Below, piece after piece: positions 965-29,796 of a DNA stretch of 41,836 nucleotides (the first letter of the stretch is position 1; the number at the start of each line of letters is the position of its first letter). The stretch comes from Gammaproteobacteria bacterium. Its GTDB lineage: Bacteria; Pseudomonadota; Gammaproteobacteria; Acidiferrobacterales; Sulfurifustaceae. Location: assembly GCA_016199745.1 (NCBI GenBank), contig JACQFZ010000021.1, positions 1-41,836 of the forward strand, written 5' to 3'. The notes beneath the pieces were generated by a model, which was not told the origin of the DNA, searched no databases, and saw only the letters and a program-made list of their open reading frames with translations. Both the position numbers and the translations under genes were made by a program.

Positions 965-1507
965 TATCCAACCCCTTACTTTTACATAACGACTATAAGA
1001 GGTTCTTTTCTTCCTCCGATAGGTAGAGTTTGCTCCAGAGTTCGAGTATCCCTGCATTCGTTTTTCTCCATGATCTCCCCATCTAGCGGCACCTTCGTTG
1101 GTAGACAGTAGGTAAGAAGCGTGGCTCTATATCGGCCACAGGATAACCATAACGTTTTAGGATCCATGTTCGAACTCACCCAGTCGAGTGCGGTATCGTC
1201 GATATCGCCGGCCGCAATTTCGCTCGAGTGACAACGGGAATGAAGATCGATCCCTCTTTATTTGGGTAGATGCTTTTATATATAGGTATGCACAGTGTTG
1301 CCGCAAGCCGGACCCGATTCACACTCAATCAACGCCGCACGGTTGCACTCACCCTGACGATGTCCACCACGCATGCCAGGGTATTGCCGCCGGTGGTTGA
1401 GCTTCGTCAATCGTTTGCGACGTCTAATCCCGTTTGTCTAGACGAAACTCGCATCATCGAGGCGTACGCTCGCCGTTTCTCAATACATAAAAAAGGGAGT
1501 TAGTACC
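965..1507. other. Intergenic region, no gene seen
   Basis: About 540 bp without a convincing gene. Short open frames on both strands have neither a ribosome-binding site nor protein-like composition. The 3' end carries the ribosome-binding site of the next gene (GGGAG near 1495). No terminator or riboswitch was recognised. Confidence 0.55.
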
Positions 1508-4500
1508 ATGAGAGCTAGACACTTCCGCGTTCTACTTACCGCATTGTCCATTTTGGCCACGTTTGTCTTCACGGCGGCCGACGCCCTGGCTCAGTATCCC
1601 GGGTTACGATCGGAACGGCCACGCACGTACACCACACAAAGTCGCATCAACGAATTGTTGGACCCGCAGACACAGGTGCCGATCGTTCCGCTCGGGCGGT
1701 CTCCGGCGCTTAACGGCGAGCTGTCGTTCGATTTGTATATGAGCGCAAAAAATCCGACGTTCGATCAAACAGACGCACGTATTGTCGTGGTTCGCGACGA
1801 CAAGGTTCGCGACAACAACGGCAACTCCGACTATATGGTGGTGCGTCGTGCTGACAACTCCAACGGGTTGCAGGTAGCGCTGGTTCGCGGCAATGCCTAC
1901 GGCGAAACCTACCTTGCCGCCGTTGGTTACACGCTCGAGTTAAATAGGTCGCATACGTTCCGTATACGCTGGAACATCCCCAATAAGACCCTTGCTGTTT
2001 CGGTCAATGGCGCGCCAGAGGACGTCAGAACGCTCACCGTATCGGACTTCTCGCTCACTAATAAACCCTTCGTCGTATGGGGCGGACGGAAGGGCGACGA
2101 AATTACCAAGTTGAAACTGAGCGATGTCACGCCAGGCCAAGCGCCGCGGGAAGTGCTCAACATGCTCACGCCCGACAAGCGTTTGATCGAGGTTTGGGCG
2201 CGCATCGAGGAGCAGACCCGCAGCGCCGCGTACAAGCTGGTGAATAACGAGCCGGTCGTCGATCTTGGCGAAAAGGGGCATCCCGATGCGATTCGCAAAT
2301 TGGCGCTGCAATTGGGACTGGCCTACCGGCTTACCGGCAATCCGGTGTTTCGTACGGCCGCGCTTAAGTATGCCGACCAGGTGGCGGCGGTGAACGCGGC
2401 AGCCTACGGCGAATATTTGCAGGGCGGCAGGCTGGGGGCGATGGGCGTGCTTTACGATTGGTTCTATAACGAGCTTTCGAGCGACCAACGCAACAGGCTG
2501 CACTCGGCGATTAGCAACACGTTTATCAGCGACGGTGGCATCGGCGATGTGGTCTGCGGTACGAACAACCATCTCCACATGACCACCGGCGGCATCGTTT
2601 GCGGCACGACACCGGATATGACGGGCGCGACCACGCCGAGCGTCGCCAACTATTTTGTATCCGGCCACTTCGCCGGCGACGTATCACGTTCGCTGCCCGC
2701 GGTCATCGCCCTCGCGGATGAATTCCCCGGCGAGTTCGGTTCATTGCTGGACCTACTCCGGACCGAATCGTATTGGCTCTTGCAAGCAACCGATCGGACC
2801 GCAGCCGCTGGCGGGCATCATATGGGGTGGGTGTACGGCGCGGCGGTAATTGAAGCGCGGGTCGAGCTTCATGCGTTGCTGACTTCGGCGCTGGAACCGT
2901 CGGCCGATACACTGCCGCTGCTCCAAGTCAGATCATGGCAAAAGAATGCGCACTTGGGCCCGATCTATGGTTTGCGCGCCGACGGTACCTATCCGGCGTC
3001 GGGCGATGCTTATGGCAAGGATTATTTTCAGGACCTCGTTGCCTTGCCGGTGCTGAGTGGCTGGCGCTACGGAAACAACCCCTTCGCCAAACAGTTTTAC
3101 GACCAACAAATCGCCGGTAAACGTTTTCGCGGATATCACCCGCTCGAGCTGATACTGTCGGTCCCTAACCTGTCCGTTCCTGTCGCTAACCTTCCGCTTA
3201 GCACGAAGTTCGAGCCCAGCGGTTACATGCTCGCCCGCGATACCTGGGACTACCAGAACGCGACCTTGCTCGAATTCAAATCGTCATTGTTCAAAAACGA
3301 GAACCACCACCATCTCGATGAGAACGCATTCACGCTGTTCTACAAGGCACCGCTGTTGGTCGATTCCGGTTCGTATGAGGTCTACGGCGACGATCATTGG
3401 AAGCACTACTACACCCGCTCGATCGCCCACAACACTCTGACGGTTTACGATCCGACCGAGACCTATTGCCGGGTGCCCGAAAATTGCTACGCCAACGACG
3501 GCGGACAGCAAATCTGGGAGTACAACAACGGTATCGCCTATCCGACGTTGAACGACATTACTACTCCCACGGGCCGCAACTACCTGATCGGCACTGCCGA
3601 CGATGGCGCCAATAGCTTCGACCGACGCGCGGAGTTTACTTACATGCGCGGCAACGCCAGTCGTTCCTATAAATTCGACAAGCTCGATTCGAAAAACGGG
3701 TTCGTGCGCAGCATCGTGTTCCTCCAGCCCGCGTTCGCCAACACCGATCACCCAGTGACGCTGGTGTTTGATCGAGTGCGTTCGGCCACTCTCGACAAGG
3801 CGGGGTTTCGGAAATCGGTGTTGTTTCACATGGTGAACGAGCCGACGGACAATAGCGGTCAATCATCGGGCGCGGGTGTTTGGAATCTGTCCGGTAACTA
3901 TTTCACCTTCAGCAACGGCGGCGCGTACGCGAAGGTTCAGACGTTGTTACCCGGAGACGCCACGCTCAAGAAGATCGGCGGCAAGGGCGCTACGGTCGAT
4001 TACCGCTTTGCGCTGCCAGACGGCCGTGGCGGCTATACCGATAAGTTCTTGCTCAACGGTAAGTGGGTTTACACGTATCCAGATGAGGCAAACGATAGCA
4101 ACAACAGCGCGCTCGTGCCGGAGTCGAAGGCGGCGTGGCGCGTGGAAGTTGCCGTGCCACAACGGCCGCGGCTCGACGAGCAATTCCTGCACGCCGTTAC
4201 CGTCGGTGCCAACACCACGGAACTCGAGCGTGTACAAATGGCGCTGGTCTATGACGATTCTGCCAGCGTGACTGTGGCGCTCGGGTCGGGGCCGCTGGTG
4301 GTTTTCAACAAATCAATCACGCTGGCGAAGAAATTGATTCTCGGACCTCTGAGCTTGCAAAACCGCAAGATGGTCGTGACCGGGCTGTTGCCGAACGCAC
4401 TTTATCAGCGGCGGCTGGAATTCCTGTTAAATGGGACGAGTCGCCTGATCCTGGAGAACGTCACAACTGCCACAACCAGCACAGTTCGCTCCTCCGCTGC

Positions 4501-14700: not shown

Positions 14701-14890
14701 GAATGACCTTTGAGTAGGTGCTATGCCACAATTCGTTACTACTGAGTTTAGACGGCGAGGCGCAGATGGCGAGGTGCGCGCAGTTTCCCATAGACATTGA
14801 CAAATCGGCGGTTGCGTCCGAACAACGCGGACAATTTTCCGACGAATGTCGCGCATGGTGTTGGTGCGCCGACGAAGGGTGAGGCAGGCA

Positions 14891-16132
14891 ATGGAAATTT
14901 ATTTAGTGGGCGGCGCCGTGCGTGATCGGTTGCTCGGTTTGCCGGTGGTCGACCGCGATTATGTGGTCGTCGGCAGCACGCCCGAAGAGATGGTCGCGCG
15001 CGGTTTTAAGCCGGTCGGCGCCGATTTTCCGGTGTTTCTGCATCCGACGACCAAAGAGGAATACGCGCTGGCGCGCACCGAGCGTAAGCAGGGGCGCGGT
15101 TATAAAGGCTTCACGGTTTATTCCGCGCCAGACGTGCGGCTGGAAGACGATCTGCAGCGGCGCGATCTCACGGTCAATGCGATGGCCGAAGACAGTAGCG
15201 GTCGATTGATCGATCCGTTCGGCGGTGCCGCCGATCTCGAGGCCGGCATTCTGCGGCACGTGTCGCCGGCGTTCGTCGAAGATCCGTTGCGCGTTTTGCG
15301 CGTCGCGCGTTTTGCCGCACGCTTCGCCGATCGCGGTTTCCGCGTGGCTGATGAAACGCTGGCGCTCATGCGCCGCATCAGCGAATCCGGCGAACTCGAT
15401 CATCTCGTGCCCGAGCGCGTGTGGCAGGAATTGGAGCGCGCGTTGGCTGAATCGAGACCGGCACAATTTTTTACCGTGCTGCGCGACGGTGGCGCACTCG
15501 CGCGTTTGTTTCCGGAGATCGAGGCGTTGTACGGCGTGCCGCAACCGCCACAGCATCATCCGGAGATCGATACCGGTGTGCACGTTATGTTGGTCATCGA
15601 TCAGGCGGCTGCGCTCACGGACGACACCCGCATTCGCTTCGCCGCGTTGCTGCATGATCTCGGCAAAGCGACCACGCCGGCCGACATTCTGCCGCGCCAT
15701 CACGGCCATGAAGAACGCGGTACCCATCTGATCGTCGATTTCTGCCAGCGTTTTCGCGTGCCGAACGACTATCGCGACTTGGCGGTGCTGGTCGCGCGCC
15801 ACCATGGCAAGTGCCATCGGTTTGCCGAGCTGCGCCCGGGAACCGTGCTCGAACTGCTGGAAGCGCTCGATGCATTCCGCCGGCCGGAGCGGGTCGACCA
15901 GTTTGCCACCGCCTGCGAGGCCGACGCCCGCGGCCGTACCGGCTTGGAAAACCGGCCGTATCCGCAGCGGGCACTATTGGCGCAGGCGTTTGCCGCGGCG
16001 CAGGCGGTGGATACCGCCGCGGTCGCGGCCGAGGCGCTAAGCCTGGGTTTGGCCGGTCCGGCCATCGGCGAGCGCATCCGCGAACGTCGGATCGGTGCCA
16101 TTAAAGCGGCAATATCGCCGCGCCCGGAGTAG
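14891..16132 (+). CDS. cca: CCA tRNA nucleotidyltransferase, multifunctional type
   Basis: This encodes 413 residues (E. coli Cca has 412). It adds or repairs the 3' CCA end of tRNAs using CTP and ATP without a nucleic acid template. Class II features are present: GGAVRD (7-12), the metal-binding pair D21/D23 in VDRDYVV and [12 protein letters not shown]-terminal HD domain ([12 protein letters not shown]255/D256, plus HHGHEERG) provides the phosphodiesterase/phosphatase activities of the gammaproteobacterial multifunctional form. The ATG at 14891 gives the start MEIYLVGG seen in this family; upstream codons are excluded. It follows the divergent aminopeptidase gene and precedes rimO by 145 bp. 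Confidence 0.97.
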
Positions 16133-16277
16133 AATCACGCGCTGCCGCACGCCTTTGGCCTTTGGAGCCGGTAACAAACGATCGCCGGCACGTAAACTCC
16201 TCTCCTGAAAGCAGAGGGGAACTGAAGCTGGAAATCACTTTCTTACTCGTTCTGAGTTGCGCTACCCAATCACACCC

Positions 16278-17618
16278 ATGAAGACATCCCGAAAAACGCG
16301 TACGCGCGCGACTCCCCGCGTCGGTTTCGTCAGCCTCGGCTGCCCGAAGGCATTGGTCGATTCCGAGCGGATCCTGACGCAGTTGCGCGCCGAGGGTTAT
16401 GAAATCTCGCCGTCGTATGAAGGCGCCGACCTTGTGGTCGTCAACACTTGCGGATTCATCGACGCCGCGGTTGACGAATCGTTAGGCGCGATCGGCGAAG
16501 CGCTCGAACAAAACGGCCGCGTCATCGTTACCGGTTGTCTCGGTGCTAAAGGCGATGTGGTGCAGCGCACGCATCCAAAAGTGCTGGCGGTCACCGGGCC
16601 GCACGCGACCGACGAAGTCATGGCGCATGTGCACAAGCACTTGCCGAAGCCGCACGATCCCTACACCGACCTCATTCCAGCGCAAGGCATCAAGCTCACG
16701 CCCAAGCACTTCGCTTATCTTAAAATCTCCGAAGGTTGCAATCACCGCTGCACGTTCTGCATCATCCCATCGATGCGCGGCGATCTCGTCAGCCGGCCGG
16801 TCGGCGAGGTTATGCAAGAAGCGGAGCATCTGGTTAAGGCCGGTGTCAAAGAGCTGTTGGTGATTTCGCAAGACACCAGCGCGTACGGTGTCGATCTCAA
16901 ATACCGCACCGGTTTCTGGCAAGGTCGGCCGCTGAAGACACGCATGATCGAGCTCACGCAGGCGCTCGCTAGTTTCGGCGTGTGGGTGCGGTTGCATTAC
17001 GTCTATCCGTATCCGCACGTCGATGAAGTCGTGCCGTTGATGGCCGACGGCAAACTGTTGCCATATCTCGATGTGCCGTTCCAGCATGCGAGCCCGCGCA
17101 TCTTGAAACTGATGAAGCGCCCGGCCGCGACCGAAGATACGCTCGAACGGCTCCAGCGCTGGCGTTCGATCTGCCCGGAAATTACTGTGCGCTCGACGTT
17201 TATCGTCGGGTTTCCGGGCGAGACCGATGCCGATTTCACGCAGTTGCTCGATTTTCTCGCAGAGGCGCAGCTCGATCGCGTCGGTTGCTTCGCCTATTCG
17301 CCGGTCGACGGTGCGACCGCCAATGCCTTGGCCGACCCAGTGCCGGAAGCGCTAAAGCAAGAACGCTTGGCGCGCTTCATGGAAGTACAGGCGCGCATTT
17401 CGGCGGAGAAGTTGCAGCGCAAAATTGGTAAGACGCTGACGGTGTTGGTCGACGAGATTGCGCCCGAAGGCACAGCCATTGCCCGTTCCAGCGCCGACGC
17501 ACCGGAGATCGATGGGCGTGTTTACGTCGAGAATGCTGGCAACTTGAGCGTCGGTGCGTTTGCCACGGTGCGGGTGACGCGTGCCGACGAGCACGATCTT
17601 TTTGCGGTAGCCGTATGA
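16278..17618 (+). CDS. rimO: Ribosomal protein uS12 methylthiotransferase RimO
   Basis: This encodes 446 residues. It is a radical SAM enzyme that methylthiolates Asp88 of ribosomal protein S12. The N-terminal MTTase domain carries the three cysteines of the auxiliary Fe-S cluster (C22 in SLGCPKA, C58 in VNTCGF, C87 in VTGCLGA). The radical SAM CxxxCxxC is C154, C158, C161 (GCNHRCTFC). A TRAM domain closes the protein. The [12 protein letters not shown] start and the GCLGAK motif separate RimO from the related MiaB. The ATG at 16278 has no clear ribosome-binding site; a TTG at 16257 is in frame. A FKBP isomerase gene follows 47 bp downstream. Confidence 0.96.
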
Positions 17619-22821: not shown

Positions 22822-23424
22822 GTGGAATATCTATATCCCGTTATTGCCTATCTTATCGGCTCGATGCCGATGGCCATCATCGTCACACGTGCGCTGGGCC
22901 TGGCCGATCCGCGTACGGTGGGTTCCGGTAATCCTGGCGCAACTAACGTACTGCGCTATGGCGGCAAGAAGGCGGCAATACTGACGTTGTTGGGCGATCT
23001 CGGTAAGGGCGCGTTGGCGGTGTTGCTGGCGCGCTGGCTGACGACCGATACGATGGTGTTAGCGCTTTGCGGCCTCGGCGCTTTTCTCGGTCATCTTTAT
23101 CCGATCTTTTTCGGCTTTCGCGGCGGTAAGGGTGTTGCCACCGGGCTTGGCGTTTGGCTGGCGCTGTGGTGGCCGGTCGGCGTGATGCTGTTGCTGACCT
23201 GGTTCGTGGTGGCCTATTTGTTTCGTTATTCGTCGTTAGCGGCGCTGGTCGCTGCCGTACTGTTACCGCTATATGTCGCCTGGTTTGTGCCGGTGGCAGG
23301 GTTCATGGTGCTGAGCGTGGCGATGACGGTGCTGTTGCTGTGGCGCCATCGTTCCAATATTACGAAGCTAATGGACGGCACCGAGGGCAAGATCGGTCGA
23401 CCGAAGGATAAGACAGCGAATTAA
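22822..23424 (+). CDS. plsY: Acyl-phosphate glycerol-3-phosphate acyltransferase
   Basis: This encodes 200 residues, an integral inner-membrane protein with about five membrane segments. It makes lysophosphatidic acid from acyl-phosphate and glycerol-3-phosphate. The three conserved loops are visible: [26 protein letters not shown] and [16 protein letters not shown] at 22822 is used as the start; no clear ribosome-binding site is seen. The stop TAA (23422-23424) shares bases with the stop of convergent tsaD (TTAA, 23421-23424). Confidence 0.96.
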
Positions 23425-24434
23425 ATCGGCGCCAGCTCGTTGATGCGCCAGCGCGGTTTTGCCCGGAATTCGAGTCCGTCATGTTGGCCGGCGGCAAGAC
23501 GGGCGCAACCGGCATAAGCAATCATGGCGCCGTTGTCGGTACAGAATTCAAACCGCGGGAAATAACAGCGAATCCCAAGGCGTCCGCTAAGCTCGTCGAG
23601 ACGTGTCCGCAATACCTGATTGGCGCTGACGCCGCCCGCAACTACCAGTCGCGTATGCCGCGTTTGCCCGAGGGCGCGCTCGACCTTGATCGCCAGCGTA
23701 TCGATGGCCGCTTGCTGAAAACTGGCGGCGATATCGGCGATACATTGGGCATCGAGCGGTTGCGCCGCGGCCGCTTGCACACAGGCGGTCTTTAGGCCGC
23801 TGAAGCTGAAATCGAGACCGGGACGGTCAGTCATCGGTCGCGGCAGTCGGAATCGCCCCGGATTTCCGGTCTTGGCCGCCTGCTCGATCGCCGGCCCACC
23901 GGGATAATCGAGGCGGAGAAGCTTGGCGGTCTTGTCGAAAGCCTCGCCGACAGCATCGTCGATCGATTCACCGAGGAGGGTGTAATCGCCGATCCCGCGC
24001 ACATCGGCCAGCAGCGTATGACCGCCGGAAACCAGTAGCGCCAGGAACGGGAACGATGGTGGGTTCGATTCCAGCAGCGGCGACAGTAAATGCCCTTCCA
24101 TATGATGGACCCCGAGCGCCGGGACCCCCCAGGCGAAAGCCAGCGATCGCCCGACAGCGGCTCCCACCAAAAGTGCGCCGGCCAAGCCGGGTCCAGCGGT
24201 GTAAGCAACCGCGTCGATATCGTTTTGCCCCGATCCGGCCTGTTCCAGGACCTGCCGGATTAGCGGTAAAGCCTTGCGAATATGGTCGCGCGAGGCCAGC
24301 TCCGGGACGACGCCGCCGTAATCGAGGTGTAACGTGGTTTGCGAATAACGCAGGTGCGCCAGTAGGCCACGGCGGCTGTCATAAACAGCGACTCCGGTGT
24401 CGTCGCAGGATGTCTCGATACCTAATACACGCAT
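23421..24434 (-). CDS. tsaD: tRNA N6-threonylcarbamoyladenosine synthase subunit TsaD
   Basis: This encodes 337 residues, the same length as the E. coli protein, when started at MRVLGIETS (24434); an in-frame ATG three codons upstream is possible. It transfers threonylcarbamoyl to A37 of ANN-decoding tRNAs with TsaB and TsaE. The ASKHA fold signatures IETSCDDTG and GVHHMEGH (metal-binding histidines) are intact. It lies divergent to rpsU, the common gammaproteobacterial order. The tRNA-Ile(CAU) downstream of rpoD is among its expected substrates. Confidence 0.97.
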
Positions 24435-24524
24435 GCCGTGCATCTTAATCTGTTAGGTGCCAATGGCACTGAACTTAACTGAACTATGTCACTAAATTTA
24501 CTCGCCCCGAACTTACTTAGCAGG

Positions 24525-27318: not shown

Positions 27319-29163
27319 ATGGATCAAGAGACACAACGCTCCCAACTTAAGAAGTTGATCATTCAGGGTAAGGAACAAGGGTTCCTCACCTATCGGGAGA
27401 TTAACGACCATCTTCCGGAAGAAGTTCACGACACCGATCAGATCGAAGCGGTCGTGAATATGATCAACGACATGGGTATCCAGGTGTTCGACGAAGCACC
27501 GGATCCGGATGCGTTGCTGCTCAAAACCGAACAAGCGCCGGCCGAAGAAGATGAAGAGGCCGTCGAAGAAGCCGAGCAAGTATTGGTATCGGCGGTCGAC
27601 AGCGAATTCGGTCGCACAACCGATCCCGTGCGCATGTACATGCGCGAGATGGGCACGGTCGAATTGCTAACGCGCGAAGGCGAGATCGAACTCGCCAAGC
27701 GTATCGAAGACGGCGTTCGTCAAACGACCGAAGCCATTGCCGCATGTCCGGCAGCGATTGCCGAAGTCGTGCGCATGATGGACTTGGTCGAAGCCGATCA
27801 AATGCGGTTGACCGATCTCGTCGTCGACTTCGTCGATCCGAACGCGCCCGATATGCCGTTGCCGGAAGTGGTGGTGAAGACCGGCAACGAAGAAGAAGAC
27901 GACGAAGCAGCCGAAGCCGCCGGCGGCGGTACCGGTGAAACCGAAGAAGAAGGCGGCCCGAATCGCGAAGAGGCGATCGAGCGCTTTGGTCGTATTCGCA
28001 AGCTGCATGCCGGCCTGCTCAAGACCATGCAGAAGCATGGCCATGATAGCCCCGAGCTGCGGCGCACGCAGAAGAAGCTCGCCGAAGAGTTCATGCAGAT
28101 CAAATTCGTCTCGAAGCAGATTAACCGTCTGGTCGAGTATGTGCGTTCGTTGGTCGATCAAGCGCGTGCGCAAGAAAAAGTAGTGATGGATATCTGCGTC
28201 GGCAAAGCGCGGATGCCGCGTAAGAACTTTATTAAGAGCTTCCCCGGTAACGAGACCAACAAGCGTTGGGTCAAGAAAGCGGCGAAGTCGGGCGATGTTA
28301 ACGAAGCCGTGCTCGAAAGCCACGCCGACGAAATCATGTCGGCGCAAGACAAGTTGGGGCAGATCGAAGAGCGTACCGGCCTGCCGATCGGCGCGTTGAA
28401 AGAAGTCAATCGGCGCATGTCGATCGGCGAAGCGAAAGCGCGGCGCGCGAAGAAAGAGATGGTCGAGGCGAACTTGCGTCTCGTGATCTCGATCGCCAAG
28501 AAATACACCAACCGCGGCCTGCAGTTCCTCGACCTGATTCAGGAAGGCAACATCGGCCTGATGAAAGCGGTCGACAAGTTTGAATACCGCCGCGGTTACA
28601 AGTTCTCGACGTATGCGACCTGGTGGATTCGTCAGGCCATCACGCGCTCGATCGCCGATCAAGCTCGCACCATTCGTATTCCGGTGCACATGATCGAAAC
28701 GATCAACAAGCTCAACCGTATCTCGCGGCAGATGCTGCAAGAGATGGGTCGCGAAGCGACGCCGGAAGAGCTGGCCGAGCGCATGGAAATGCCGGAAGAC
28801 AAGATCCGCAAGGTGCTGAAGATCGCCAAGGAACCGATCTCGATGGAGACGCCGATCGGCGACGACGAGGATTCGCATCTTGGCGACTTTGTCGAAGACG
28901 TGAACACCGTTGCGCCGCCCGATGCGGCTACCGGCACCGGCTTGAAGTATGCGACGACGGAAATCTTGAATACGCTGACGCCACGTGAGGCGAAGGTCCT
29001 ACGCATGCGCTTCGGCATCGGTATGAACACCGACCACACCTTGGAAGAAGTCGGCAAGCAGTTTGACGTAACGCGCGAGCGCATTCGTCAGATTGAAGCC
29101 AAGGCGCTGCGTAAGCTACGGCACCCGAGCCGGTCGGAGCATCTGCGGAGTTTCCTCGACTAG
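27319..29163 (+). CDS. rpoD: RNA polymerase primary sigma factor RpoD (sigma-70)
   Basis: This encodes 614 residues, the usual gammaproteobacterial length. Region 1.1 lies in about the first 80 residues, then region 1.2 ([16 protein letters not shown]). An acidic non-conserved insert follows, rich in Glu and Gly (about 190-215). Regions 2.1-2.4 lie at about 380-455 ([33 protein letters not shown]) and recognise the -10 element. Region 4.2 (574-593, [20 protein letters not shown]) is the helix-turn-helix for the -35 element. It directs transcription of housekeeping genes. It is last in the operon and ends in a strong hairpin. Confidence 0.99.
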
Positions 29164-29301: not shown

Positions 29302-29380
29302 GTAGCCCGGATAGAGCGAAGCGCAATCCGGGGGACTCCATTCCCCGGATTGCGGCGCTACGCACCTCCATCCGGGCTAC
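29302..29380. repeat. Nested inverted repeat of the GTAGCCCGGAT family
   Basis: The outer arms GTAGCCCGGA (29302-29311) and TCCGGGCTAC (29371-29380) are perfect inverses. The inner arms GCAATCCGGGG (29323-29333) and CCCCGGATTGC (29343-29353) are also perfect. Sequences of this type (GTAGCCCGGAT with GAGCGAAGCG) are common dispersed intergenic repeats in gammaproteobacteria. Confidence 0.75.
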
Positions 29381-29438
29381 CTATTCGGGTTATTTCTATC
29401 CCAACCCAAGCAACCCGAAAAAATCTTGCCCAAGACAT

Positions 29439-29466
29439 TTGCCTCACGAGAGCCCACGCGTAGAAT
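29439..29466 (+). promoter_or_regulatory. Candidate promoter of the tRNA-Ile gene
   Basis: TTGCCT (29439-29444; four of six) and TAGAAT (29461-29466; five of six) with a 16-bp spacer. The -10 ends 13 bp before the first base of the tRNA, a normal distance for a short 5' leader. Confidence 0.5.
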
Positions 29467-29479
29467 CAACGCCTCTTTT

Positions 29480-29796
29480 GGGCCTGTAGCTCAGTTGGTT
29501 AGAGCTGGGGACTCATCACAACGGTGCGCTCATACCGAAAGGTGTGAGATGAACGGGATGAATTCAGGGAACCCGTAACGATTCGGTCGACGGCAATCCT
29601 GAGCCAAGCCGGAAGTACACTTCCGGAAGGTGCAGAGACTACCTGAGGACTTCAGTGTCCTTAATAACAGGCGTCGAGCGTCCCGCGCCCAAACGGCTCG
29701 CAAGAGTCACGGGCGGTGAGATAGTCCACTCCGACTGGAAACAGTTGGACACAGTGAATCCCTAGGTCGCAGGTTCGAGTCCTGCCGGGCCCACCA
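29480..29796 (+). tRNA. tRNA-Ile(CAU) gene interrupted by a group I intron
   Basis: The 5' exon (29480-29516) and 3' exon (29757-29796) join to a 77-nt tRNA with encoded CCA. The acceptor stem is GGGCCUG with CGGGCCC, the D-arm GCUC/GAGC, the anticodon stem GGGGA/UCCCU with loop CUCAUAA, and the T-arm GCAGG/CCUGC. The anticodon is CAU. C4-G69 and C5-G68, with A37 and A38, match the features by which TilS selects tRNA-Ile2 for conversion of C34 to lysidine, so I read it as Ile decoding AUA and not elongator Met. The 240-nt insertion lies between U36 and A37. The position after rpoD is used for a tRNA in other gammaproteobacteria. Without splicing the tRNA could not form, so the intron must be active if this is the only AUA-reading tRNA. 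Confidence 0.9.
29517..29756 (+). ncRNA. Group I self-splicing intron in the anticodon loop
   Basis: 240 nt, no ORF. Visible elements: an internal guide GUG (29524-29526) that pairs with the exon CAU through a U-G at the splice site; P2 (29529-29536 with 29541-29548) closed by a GAAA tetraloop; P3 (UUCAGG 29563-29568 with CCUGAG 29642-29647); P4-P6 around CAAUCCUGAGCCAAG (29594-29608) with a CCGGAA/UUCCGG hairpin; P7 (GACUA 29637-29641 with UAGUC 29722-29726), the guanosine-binding site; a P8 hairpin (GGAC/GUCC near 29647-29660); P9 (CCGACUG/CAGUUGG, GAAA loop, 29731-29748); and the terminal G at 29756. The host tRNA and the CAU guide are the same as in the well-studied Azoarcus tRNA-Ile intron, which suggests the same subgroup (IC3). 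It needs exogenous guanosine for splicing. Confidence 0.9.

Follow-up and report, generated by a model that had tools for sequence, protein, structure and literature searches.

A group I intron with a nested P7.1/P7.2 extension interrupts the tRNA-Ile(CAU) gene of a gammaproteobacterium

The window (the whole 41,836-nt stretch of DNA that was analysed) carries a tRNA-Ile(CAU) gene at positions 29480-29796 of the forward strand, interrupted 3' of the anticodon by a 240-nt group I intron (Table 1). The split gene lies on contig C21 of a 72-contig draft genome (4,256,067 bases, 98.05% complete). The upstream gene is rpoD; the tRNA gene starts 316 nt after it and has a possible promoter of its own in the gap, although the scan behind it (two hits nearby, one of them on the minus strand, where shuffles give 0.6 on average) is not evidence of function. 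The first-pass annotation had placed the gene in a core operon with rpoD: the position behind rpoD stands, whereas 'core operon' is overstated given the 316-nt gap and the separate sigma-70-like site. A long imperfect palindrome lies between rpoD and the tRNA gene (TAGCCCGGAT...ATCCGGGCTAC, 29308-29381) and looks REP/BIME-like by eye. Elsewhere the window encodes a nucleotidyltransferase with PolyA_pol and HD domains (14846-16129; a CCA-adding or poly(A) enzyme), a MiaB/RimO-like radical SAM protein with TRAM (16257-17615) and TsaD (23421-24443).

Table 1. Features of the split tRNA-Ile(CAU) locus and elements of the intron, in window positions. Percentages are standard pairs in the alignment of 39 introns unless stated otherwise.
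Feature	Position	Strand	Evidence and remarks
rpoD (sigma-70), upstream gene	27319-29163	+	NCBIfam NF004208, 887.7 bits, above cut-off
Possible tRNA promoter, TTGCCT, 16-nt spacer, TAGAAT	29439-29466	+	Sigma-70-like; 9 of 12 positions in consensus scan
tRNA-Ile(CAU) exon 1	29480-29516	+	3' end is the anticodon CAU; CAU tRNA after exon joining
Group I intron	29517-29756	+	240 nt; RF00028, 61 bits; homologues
P1 guide GGUG	29523-29526	+	GUG pairs with CAU, U.G at the 5' splice site; GGUG in 103/103
P2, GAAA loop	29529-29548	+	8/8 pairs with both-side changes; loop GNRA in 102/103
P3 5' strand	29554-29560	+	Partner 29679-29685; 98.5% paired, 5/7 pairs invariant; found unaided by RNAalifold
P4	29564-29569 with 29597-29602	+	100% paired, nearly invariant
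P5, short	29573-29576 with 29590-29593	+	75.6% paired; two C-G pairs invariant, next two poor
P6a hairpin	29609-29626	+	99.6% paired; 5/7 pairs with both-side changes
P7 5' strand GACUA, guanosine-binding helix	29637-29641	+	Partner 29722-29726; invariant
P7.1	29642-29645 with 29668-29671	+	100% paired, invariant; encloses P7.2
P7.2	29646-29650 with 29657-29661	+	100% paired; 3 pairs with both-side changes
P3 3' strand	29679-29685	+	Partner 29554-29560
P8 with terminal hairpin	29687-29714	+	100% paired (39 rows), 96.8% (103 rows); outer hairpin 81.8%
P7 3' strand UAGUC	29722-29726	+	Partner 29637-29641
P9, GAAA loop	29730-29749	+	90% paired, 6/8 pairs with both-side changes; GAAA loop in 102/103
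Terminal guanosine of intron	29756	+	G ends 106/106 listed introns
tRNA-Ile(CAU) exon 2	29757-29796	+	5' end AAUCCC; CCA encoded

The limits of the gene and the intron length of 240 nt that the first-pass annotation gave proved exact; the Rfam search that it proposed came out in its favour, and so did a tRNA search on the joined exons. RF00028 is the sole Rfam match above gathering score within the window (29505-29748; 61 bits against a cut-off of 50, E 3.4e-13) and spans the model in full (1-253), and ARAGORN calls a CAU tRNA from the joined exons, as it does from all 106 distinct exon pairs tried. ARAGORN labels this tRNA Met, going by its anticodon; the Met and fMet genes of the draft are located separately, and by exclusion the joined tRNA would be the isoleucine one, an identity also suggested by its C4-G69 and C5-G68 pairs, which have a role for TilS. 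The draft encodes TilS (173 bits against a cut-off of 93.6). Changes in the stems of the host tRNA are compensated (GTGGA with TCCAT in loci L208-L211), and positions 26 and 44 are U26/A44 in the window against A26/U44 in most homologues. The locus also holds a warning for annotation: without intron mode ARAGORN calls no tRNA in the window and misses the gene, and with it assigns a wrong anticodon, Gln(CTG), to 19 of 20 loci, the register being wrong because the group I junction is not in its model.

The same arrangement recurs widely. When GTDB species genomes were scanned for a 3'-junction pattern, at least 120 stretches matched; 99 of the 120 listed contain a complete split tRNA gene, 96 with an intron of the window's type (hereafter window-type) and three with one of Azoarcus type. 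The 21 left out are cut at the end of the piece (eight: L075, L122, L124, L131, L142, L168, L178 and L181), are remnants or duplicated 3' parts (five: L072, L105, L107, L144 and L157), hold a broken Azoarcus-type intron (L176) or are chance matches (seven: L074, L119, L123, L132, L151, L162 and L175). With the relaxed pattern for the 5' exon (118 loci, against 90 with the stricter one), at least 118 loci split after CAU give at least 106 distinct introns, of which at least 103 are window-type (the window's own included) and three Azoarcus-type; the listed window-type introns are 226-321 nt long. The motif GGTGCAGAGACTACCTG, from the P7/P7.1 core, occurs in 23 of 369 genomes drawn evenly from the class: all 20 that were checked by script have a tRNA-Ile(CAU) split after CAU, and the loci of relatives give the same split site for the remaining three (G000, G006 and G057; 23/23 in total). 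An RF00028 search matched in 27 of 60 relatives; among 20 loci taken from these, 19 are split tRNA-Ile(CAU) genes with identical junctions, and the remaining one, L019, holds another intron that has a long insert. The first-pass annotation had spoken of a new small self-splicing ribozyme: the small size and the GAAA loops hold, and the intron is no one-off but belongs to a family of at least 103 distinct members.

The fold was assessed on 39 of the 103 listed window-type introns, picked for diversity (alignment A1). Over 64 pairs, 95.8% of the cells hold standard pairs, a figure that falls to 32-45% when the partners are slid by 1-3 columns as a control; 30 pairs have changes on both sides (shuffled mean 22.5, with none of 500 shuffles as high) and 317 cells have both sides changed (92.7 when shuffled). 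These counts and controls support the fold. P2, P6a, P7.2, the outer part of P8 and P9 covary, and P3, P4, P6, P6a, P7 and P8 are 98.5-100% paired. The first-pass annotation had looked to covariance among homologues for P3 and P7; it speaks for the fold as a whole, whereas P3, P4, P7 and P7.1 are nearly invariant in the family, so that covariation is silent on them and their support is conservation. RNAalifold, given no structure, found P2, P3, P4, two pairs of P5, P6a, P7.2, P8 and most of P9, and paired the strands of P6, P7 and P7.1 differently from the proposed fold; a P3/P7 pseudoknot cannot be drawn by this program.

All of the elements first read by eye (P1 with its GUG guide, P2, P3, P7, P8, P9, the terminal G and the GAAA loops on P2 and P9) are present. 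Every one of the 103 listed window-type introns starts with C and has GGUG inside its first 16 nt, and all 106 listed introns, the three Azoarcus-type ones included, end in G. A pair that extends P1 (the first C with the G before GUG) is possible by sequence in 103/103, but the alignment, which is poor at the 5' ends, shows it in only 48 of 90 cells. The GNRA/GAAA loops of P2 and P9 could dock into C-G pairs of P5 and P8 that never vary. Downstream of P7 the window intron has a single P9 hairpin, followed by 7 nt to the 3' end. With the RF00028 score, the U.G pair of P1, the terminal G and the P4-P6 and P3-P7-P8 domains joined by a pseudoknot, a group I intron that splits tRNA-Ile(CAU) is confirmed; an archaeal-type tRNA intron, considered as an alternative, was dropped in view of the RF00028 match and the core helices.

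What the first reading of the helices overlooked is an extension of 30 nt (29642-29671) between the P7 5' strand and the P3 3' strand, an insert relative to the RF00028 model, with the layout CCUG-AGGAC-loop-GUCCU-bulge-CAGG, in which P7.2 is nested inside P7.1. It is present in 103/103 listed window-type introns; the motif used to sort them covers the beginning of P7.1, so that introns without the extension might escape, although the 3'-junction scan is independent of it and its 99 listed complete genes comprise 96 with the extension and the three of Azoarcus type. The constant presence of the extension, the invariance of P7.1 and the covariation of P7.2 argue that it is under selection.

Among the closest known systems is the pre-tRNA-Ile intron of Azoarcus sp. 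BH72, a small intron that follows the anticodon, has the guide GUG and carries GAAA loops on P2 and P9. The window intron shares its host tRNA-Ile(CAU), site, guide, GAAA loops and small size, as the first-pass annotation had it in seeing an Azoarcus-like ribozyme in another class; the likeness in site and guide holds, whereas the P7.1/P7.2 extension and a distinct core set the two apart. Three listed introns without the extension (L147, L152 and L177, besides the broken L176) sit at the same bond of the same tRNA and run from GACU(A/U) straight into GACGG; their core appears Azoarcus-like. In core trees computed with P7.1/P7.2 cut out (about 190 columns of hard-to-align RNA; 23 of the 103 listed window-type introns), window-type introns and a tRNA-Arg(UCU) intron, L228, separate from the Azoarcus-type together with tRNA-Leu, tRNA-Arg(CCU) and further IC3-like introns, with support of 99.8/100 (39 rows) or 100/98 (43 rows, with X_L019, X_L235, X_L237 and X_L245 added); the IC3 reference rows were assigned by appearance and not from published labels. 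When three phage introns are added (row L255 left out), the split has support of 92.7/93 and its other side comprises the IC3-like and IA2 introns. L228, the nearest relative or outgroup of the window type in these trees, is a group I intron with a P7.1-like hairpin in a tRNA-Arg gene of the same class (genome G476, about 1450-1800, minus strand; anticodon UCU by eye). Further IC3-like introns with the core GTGTAGAGACTTGA were seen in relatives (L236, L237, L238, L239, L240, L242, L243 and L245); their cores do not indicate tRNA-Ile(CAU) as host.

A P7.1/P7.2 extension between P7 and P3 is also found in phage introns of T4 (L249) and Twort (L250 and L252), which by their structure we assign to IA2. 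The phage hairpins stand side by side, whereas in the window intron P7.2 lies inside P7.1; IA2 has P9.1 and P9.2 where the window intron has a single P9, and core identity is 0.50. With its nested extension, its single P9 and a core outside the IC3-like set, where IC3 introns (Azoarcus, cyanobacterial tRNA-Leu) run from P7 to P3 without an extension, the window intron fits neither IC3 nor IA2 by these comparisons. The Azoarcus intron is of subgroup IC3 and of tRNA origin (PMC4498298), the triplet of its ribozyme corresponds to the isoleucine anticodon CAU (PMC6274277), the ribozyme of T4 td (IA2) differs from those of Azoarcus and Synechococcus (both IC3) in having P7.1/P7.2 between P7 and P3 (PMC4498298), and the IA2 introns of IStrons have P9.1 and P9.2 (PMC4227781).

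The split gene is present in 19 of the 60 relatives and an unsplit one in 27 (pattern search with up to three mismatches); none has both and 14 have neither. G001, the one further member of the genus that was sampled, lacks the intron. The C-terminus of RpoD is encoded 59-551 nt upstream of the split gene in 19/19 relatives' loci, in the same order, and the unsplit gene lies close behind RpoD (7-122 nt) in 19 of 20 loci, the twentieth piece being too short. The place of the tRNA gene is therefore shared in the order and only the intron varies; the position behind rpoD, which the first-pass annotation had singled out, is that of an ordinary neighbour, and an effect of the rpoD operon was dropped as an explanation because the unsplit genes are equally linked. 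Beyond the order the linkage is common, not general: by a crude motif (the L069 protein is unlike other RpoDs), an RpoD-like C-terminus lies upstream of 69 of the 103 listed window-type introns, within 600 nt in 48 of these 69, and is absent in 34; for 19 of the 34 the available upstream sequence exceeds 2 kb.

Mapped on a tree of RpoD from 36 loci (17 of the 19 split and 19 of the 27 unsplit genomes), intron presence changes four times, against 12.2 times when shuffled. Intron distances correlate with RpoD protein distances (r 0.278, 0/999 permutations, 60 loci with L069 left out; 0.287 with it included) and more weakly with rpoD DNA distances (0.180, 9/999). The few changes and the protein correlation point to descent that is mainly vertical, with some loss or gain in several events at one fixed site; as the correlation with rpoD DNA is weak, some transfer may have taken place as well. 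A recent mobile element was dropped on the same tree count and on the absence of any listed open reading frame of at least 120 aa inside the 240-nt intron.

The first-pass annotation had made viability depend on the intron should this be the only tRNA that decodes AUA, and very probably it is. In two closed single-contig genomes of the same family (G004, 3,958,814 bases; G006, 2,864,672 bases), a search with a CAU tRNA pattern (up to three mismatches) found, besides the split gene, only Met/fMet-type CAU tRNAs, so that the split gene is the sole tRNA-Ile(CAU) found in either. In the window's draft the CAU tRNAs are Met, fMet and a partial Met-like copy at C57:23272; ARAGORN named no tRNA-Ile(UAU) among the loci read and neither tRNA-Ile(GAU) nor tRNA-Tyr among 45 tRNA rows, which marks the draft set as incomplete and leaves the closed genomes to carry the sole-copy argument. 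That incompleteness would also suit a dead copy, that is, a decayed tRNA with a relic intron in a cell where another tRNA reads AUA, as would the rarity of the codon (in ten long frames of the window it makes up 8 of 213 isoleucine codons) and a CAU tRNA-like sequence at C6:62470-62536 (55.7 bits with Infernal). The latter is rejected by ARAGORN and its outer acceptor pairs are mismatched by eye, and decay sits badly with intact splice signals, compensated stems, an invariant core, retention of TilS and the two closed genomes; we regard a dead copy as very improbable indeed. The C6 sequence belongs to a small array of odd tRNAs (C6:62158-62536; L042, L046 and L059), namely Asp(GUC), Arg(ACG) and the CAU-like one with a broken acceptor stem, which may be part of a mobile element.

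The kinship of the two intron types was weighed as well. They might stem from one entry, one branch later gaining the extension or the other losing it, as the same tRNA, the same phosphate and the same guide triplet GUG would suggest, and an RpoD-like C-terminus does lie upstream of L177, one of the three complete Azoarcus-type loci listed. Because the target dictates both site and guide, these are weak evidence of kinship; upstream of L147 and L152, more than 7 kb of DNA show no RpoD-like C-terminus, and Azoarcus-type cores resemble the IC3-like introns found in other tRNAs (mean identity 0.66 with the tRNA-Leu set and 0.68 with the X set) more closely than window-type cores (0.54), in keeping with the split at 99.8/100 that sets window-type introns and L228 against the IC3-like ones; a single entry thus seems rather unlikely to us. 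The same core tree, together with an extension that is universal among the listed introns, invariant in P7.1 and covarying in P7.2, speaks against an ordinary Azoarcus-like IC3 intron whose P7-P3 insertion is of no consequence. That reading, which we hold to be less probable still, draws on the GAAA loops of P2 and P9, the short P5 and the anticodon-loop site, all as in Azoarcus, and on the motifs GAGCCAAGC and AGAGACT, common to both types. Probably, then, two intron lineages occupy one site in one tRNA gene, and as part of the best explanation we place the window intron, with high confidence, in a lineage of its own that combines a group I core with nested P7.1/P7.2 and is distinct from the Azoarcus-type IC3 introns. 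We favour, with more reserve, the joint reading in which two unrelated group I lineages entered the same bond independently and the window's represents an undescribed structural subgroup, in which a nested and selected P7.1/P7.2 is joined to an IC3-like core and IC3-like loops, and which has been passed down over a long time among free-living Gammaproteobacteria whose sole AUA tRNA depends on it.

Going by sequence and predicted fold, the small RNA that splits the gene very likely cuts itself out. The precursor tRNA would fold into the group I structure, a guanosine bound in P7 would cut after U36, and the freed anticodon end would attack after the last G of the intron and so join the exons, both steps being those expected from the chemistry of the family; TilS would then convert C34 of the joined CAU tRNA to lysidine, allowing AUA to be read as isoleucine. 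Ties of splicing to the GTP level are possible but speculative. In all, a self-splicing group I intron of its own lineage, seated in tRNA-Ile(CAU) and mainly inherited with its host gene, is in our judgement the explanation that in all likelihood applies.

That tRNA genes of beta- and gammaproteobacteria can carry group I introns is already known. tRNA group I introns are reported from cyanobacteria and from alpha- and betaproteobacteria (PMC4033280), and tRNA-Ile2 introns from Acidovorax and Burkholderia, with 36 genomes left without fMet or Ile2 calls through such introns (tRNAscan-SE 2.0 paper, PMC8450103); the latter resemble the window's in type, in host gene and in being overlooked by a standard tRNA finder, and differ in being betaproteobacterial, the available description giving neither sequence nor subgroup. 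Putative group I introns in tRNA-Arg(TCT) and tRNA-Leu(TAA) of Thiomargarita and Beggiatoa (PMC4853749) likewise lie in gammaproteobacterial tRNA genes, so that this setting is in itself not new; they occupy other tRNAs, and the paper assigns them neither a structure nor a type. The genome paper on Sulfurifustis variabilis skN76 and Sulfuricaulis limicola HA5, of the order Acidiferrobacterales, does not use the word 'intron' in its main text (PMC5024460). Among the papers listed in searches of the open-access literature, which leaves subscription papers mostly outside its scope, none dealt with the window-type lineage, with P7.1/P7.2 in an intron of a tRNA gene or with a site linked to rpoD, and as far as that literature goes the structure, range and sole-copy status of the lineage seem new.

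These introns form a large natural family of small ribozymes on which the reading of AUA seems to depend, and two cultured type strains are likely carriers, which makes the dependence of translation on a ribozyme testable in cells. The occupation of one site by two intron types is a natural experiment on the anticodon loop as a good target, and P7.1/P7.2 on an IC3-like core offers a test of the role of the extension.

Several minor observations concern the wider occurrence of these introns. Four were found in MAGs titled Actinomycetes (L089), Halobacteria (L140), Rhodospirillaceae (L149) and Klebsiella (L152); an RpoD-like C-terminus lies upstream of the intron gene in L140 and L149, and the titles or bins of all four are probably wrong. 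Twelve matches fell on viral contigs, and five of these were inspected (L263, L266, L267, L268 and L271). L263 was rejected as a chance match within a long reading frame; the pieces in L266, L267 and L271 start inside an intron-bearing tRNA-Ile gene, within their first 300 bases (L267 being a whole contig), and a 413-aa tyrosine integrase is encoded just downstream in L267 and L271. The split tRNA seems to double as an integration site. The 3' half of the tRNA, in some cases joined to a stretch of the intron 3' end, is present a second time in genomes that also carry the full split gene, either on the same contig (L144, 462-488, with L090) or in the same genome (L072 with L150, L107 with L167, L157 with L145); these extra copies look like attachment-site duplicates. 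In L105 (260-640), an unsplit CAU tRNA directly precedes the remnant of a window-type intron (from P6a onward) and its exon 2, perhaps the fossil of a split gene that was replaced by an unsplit one.
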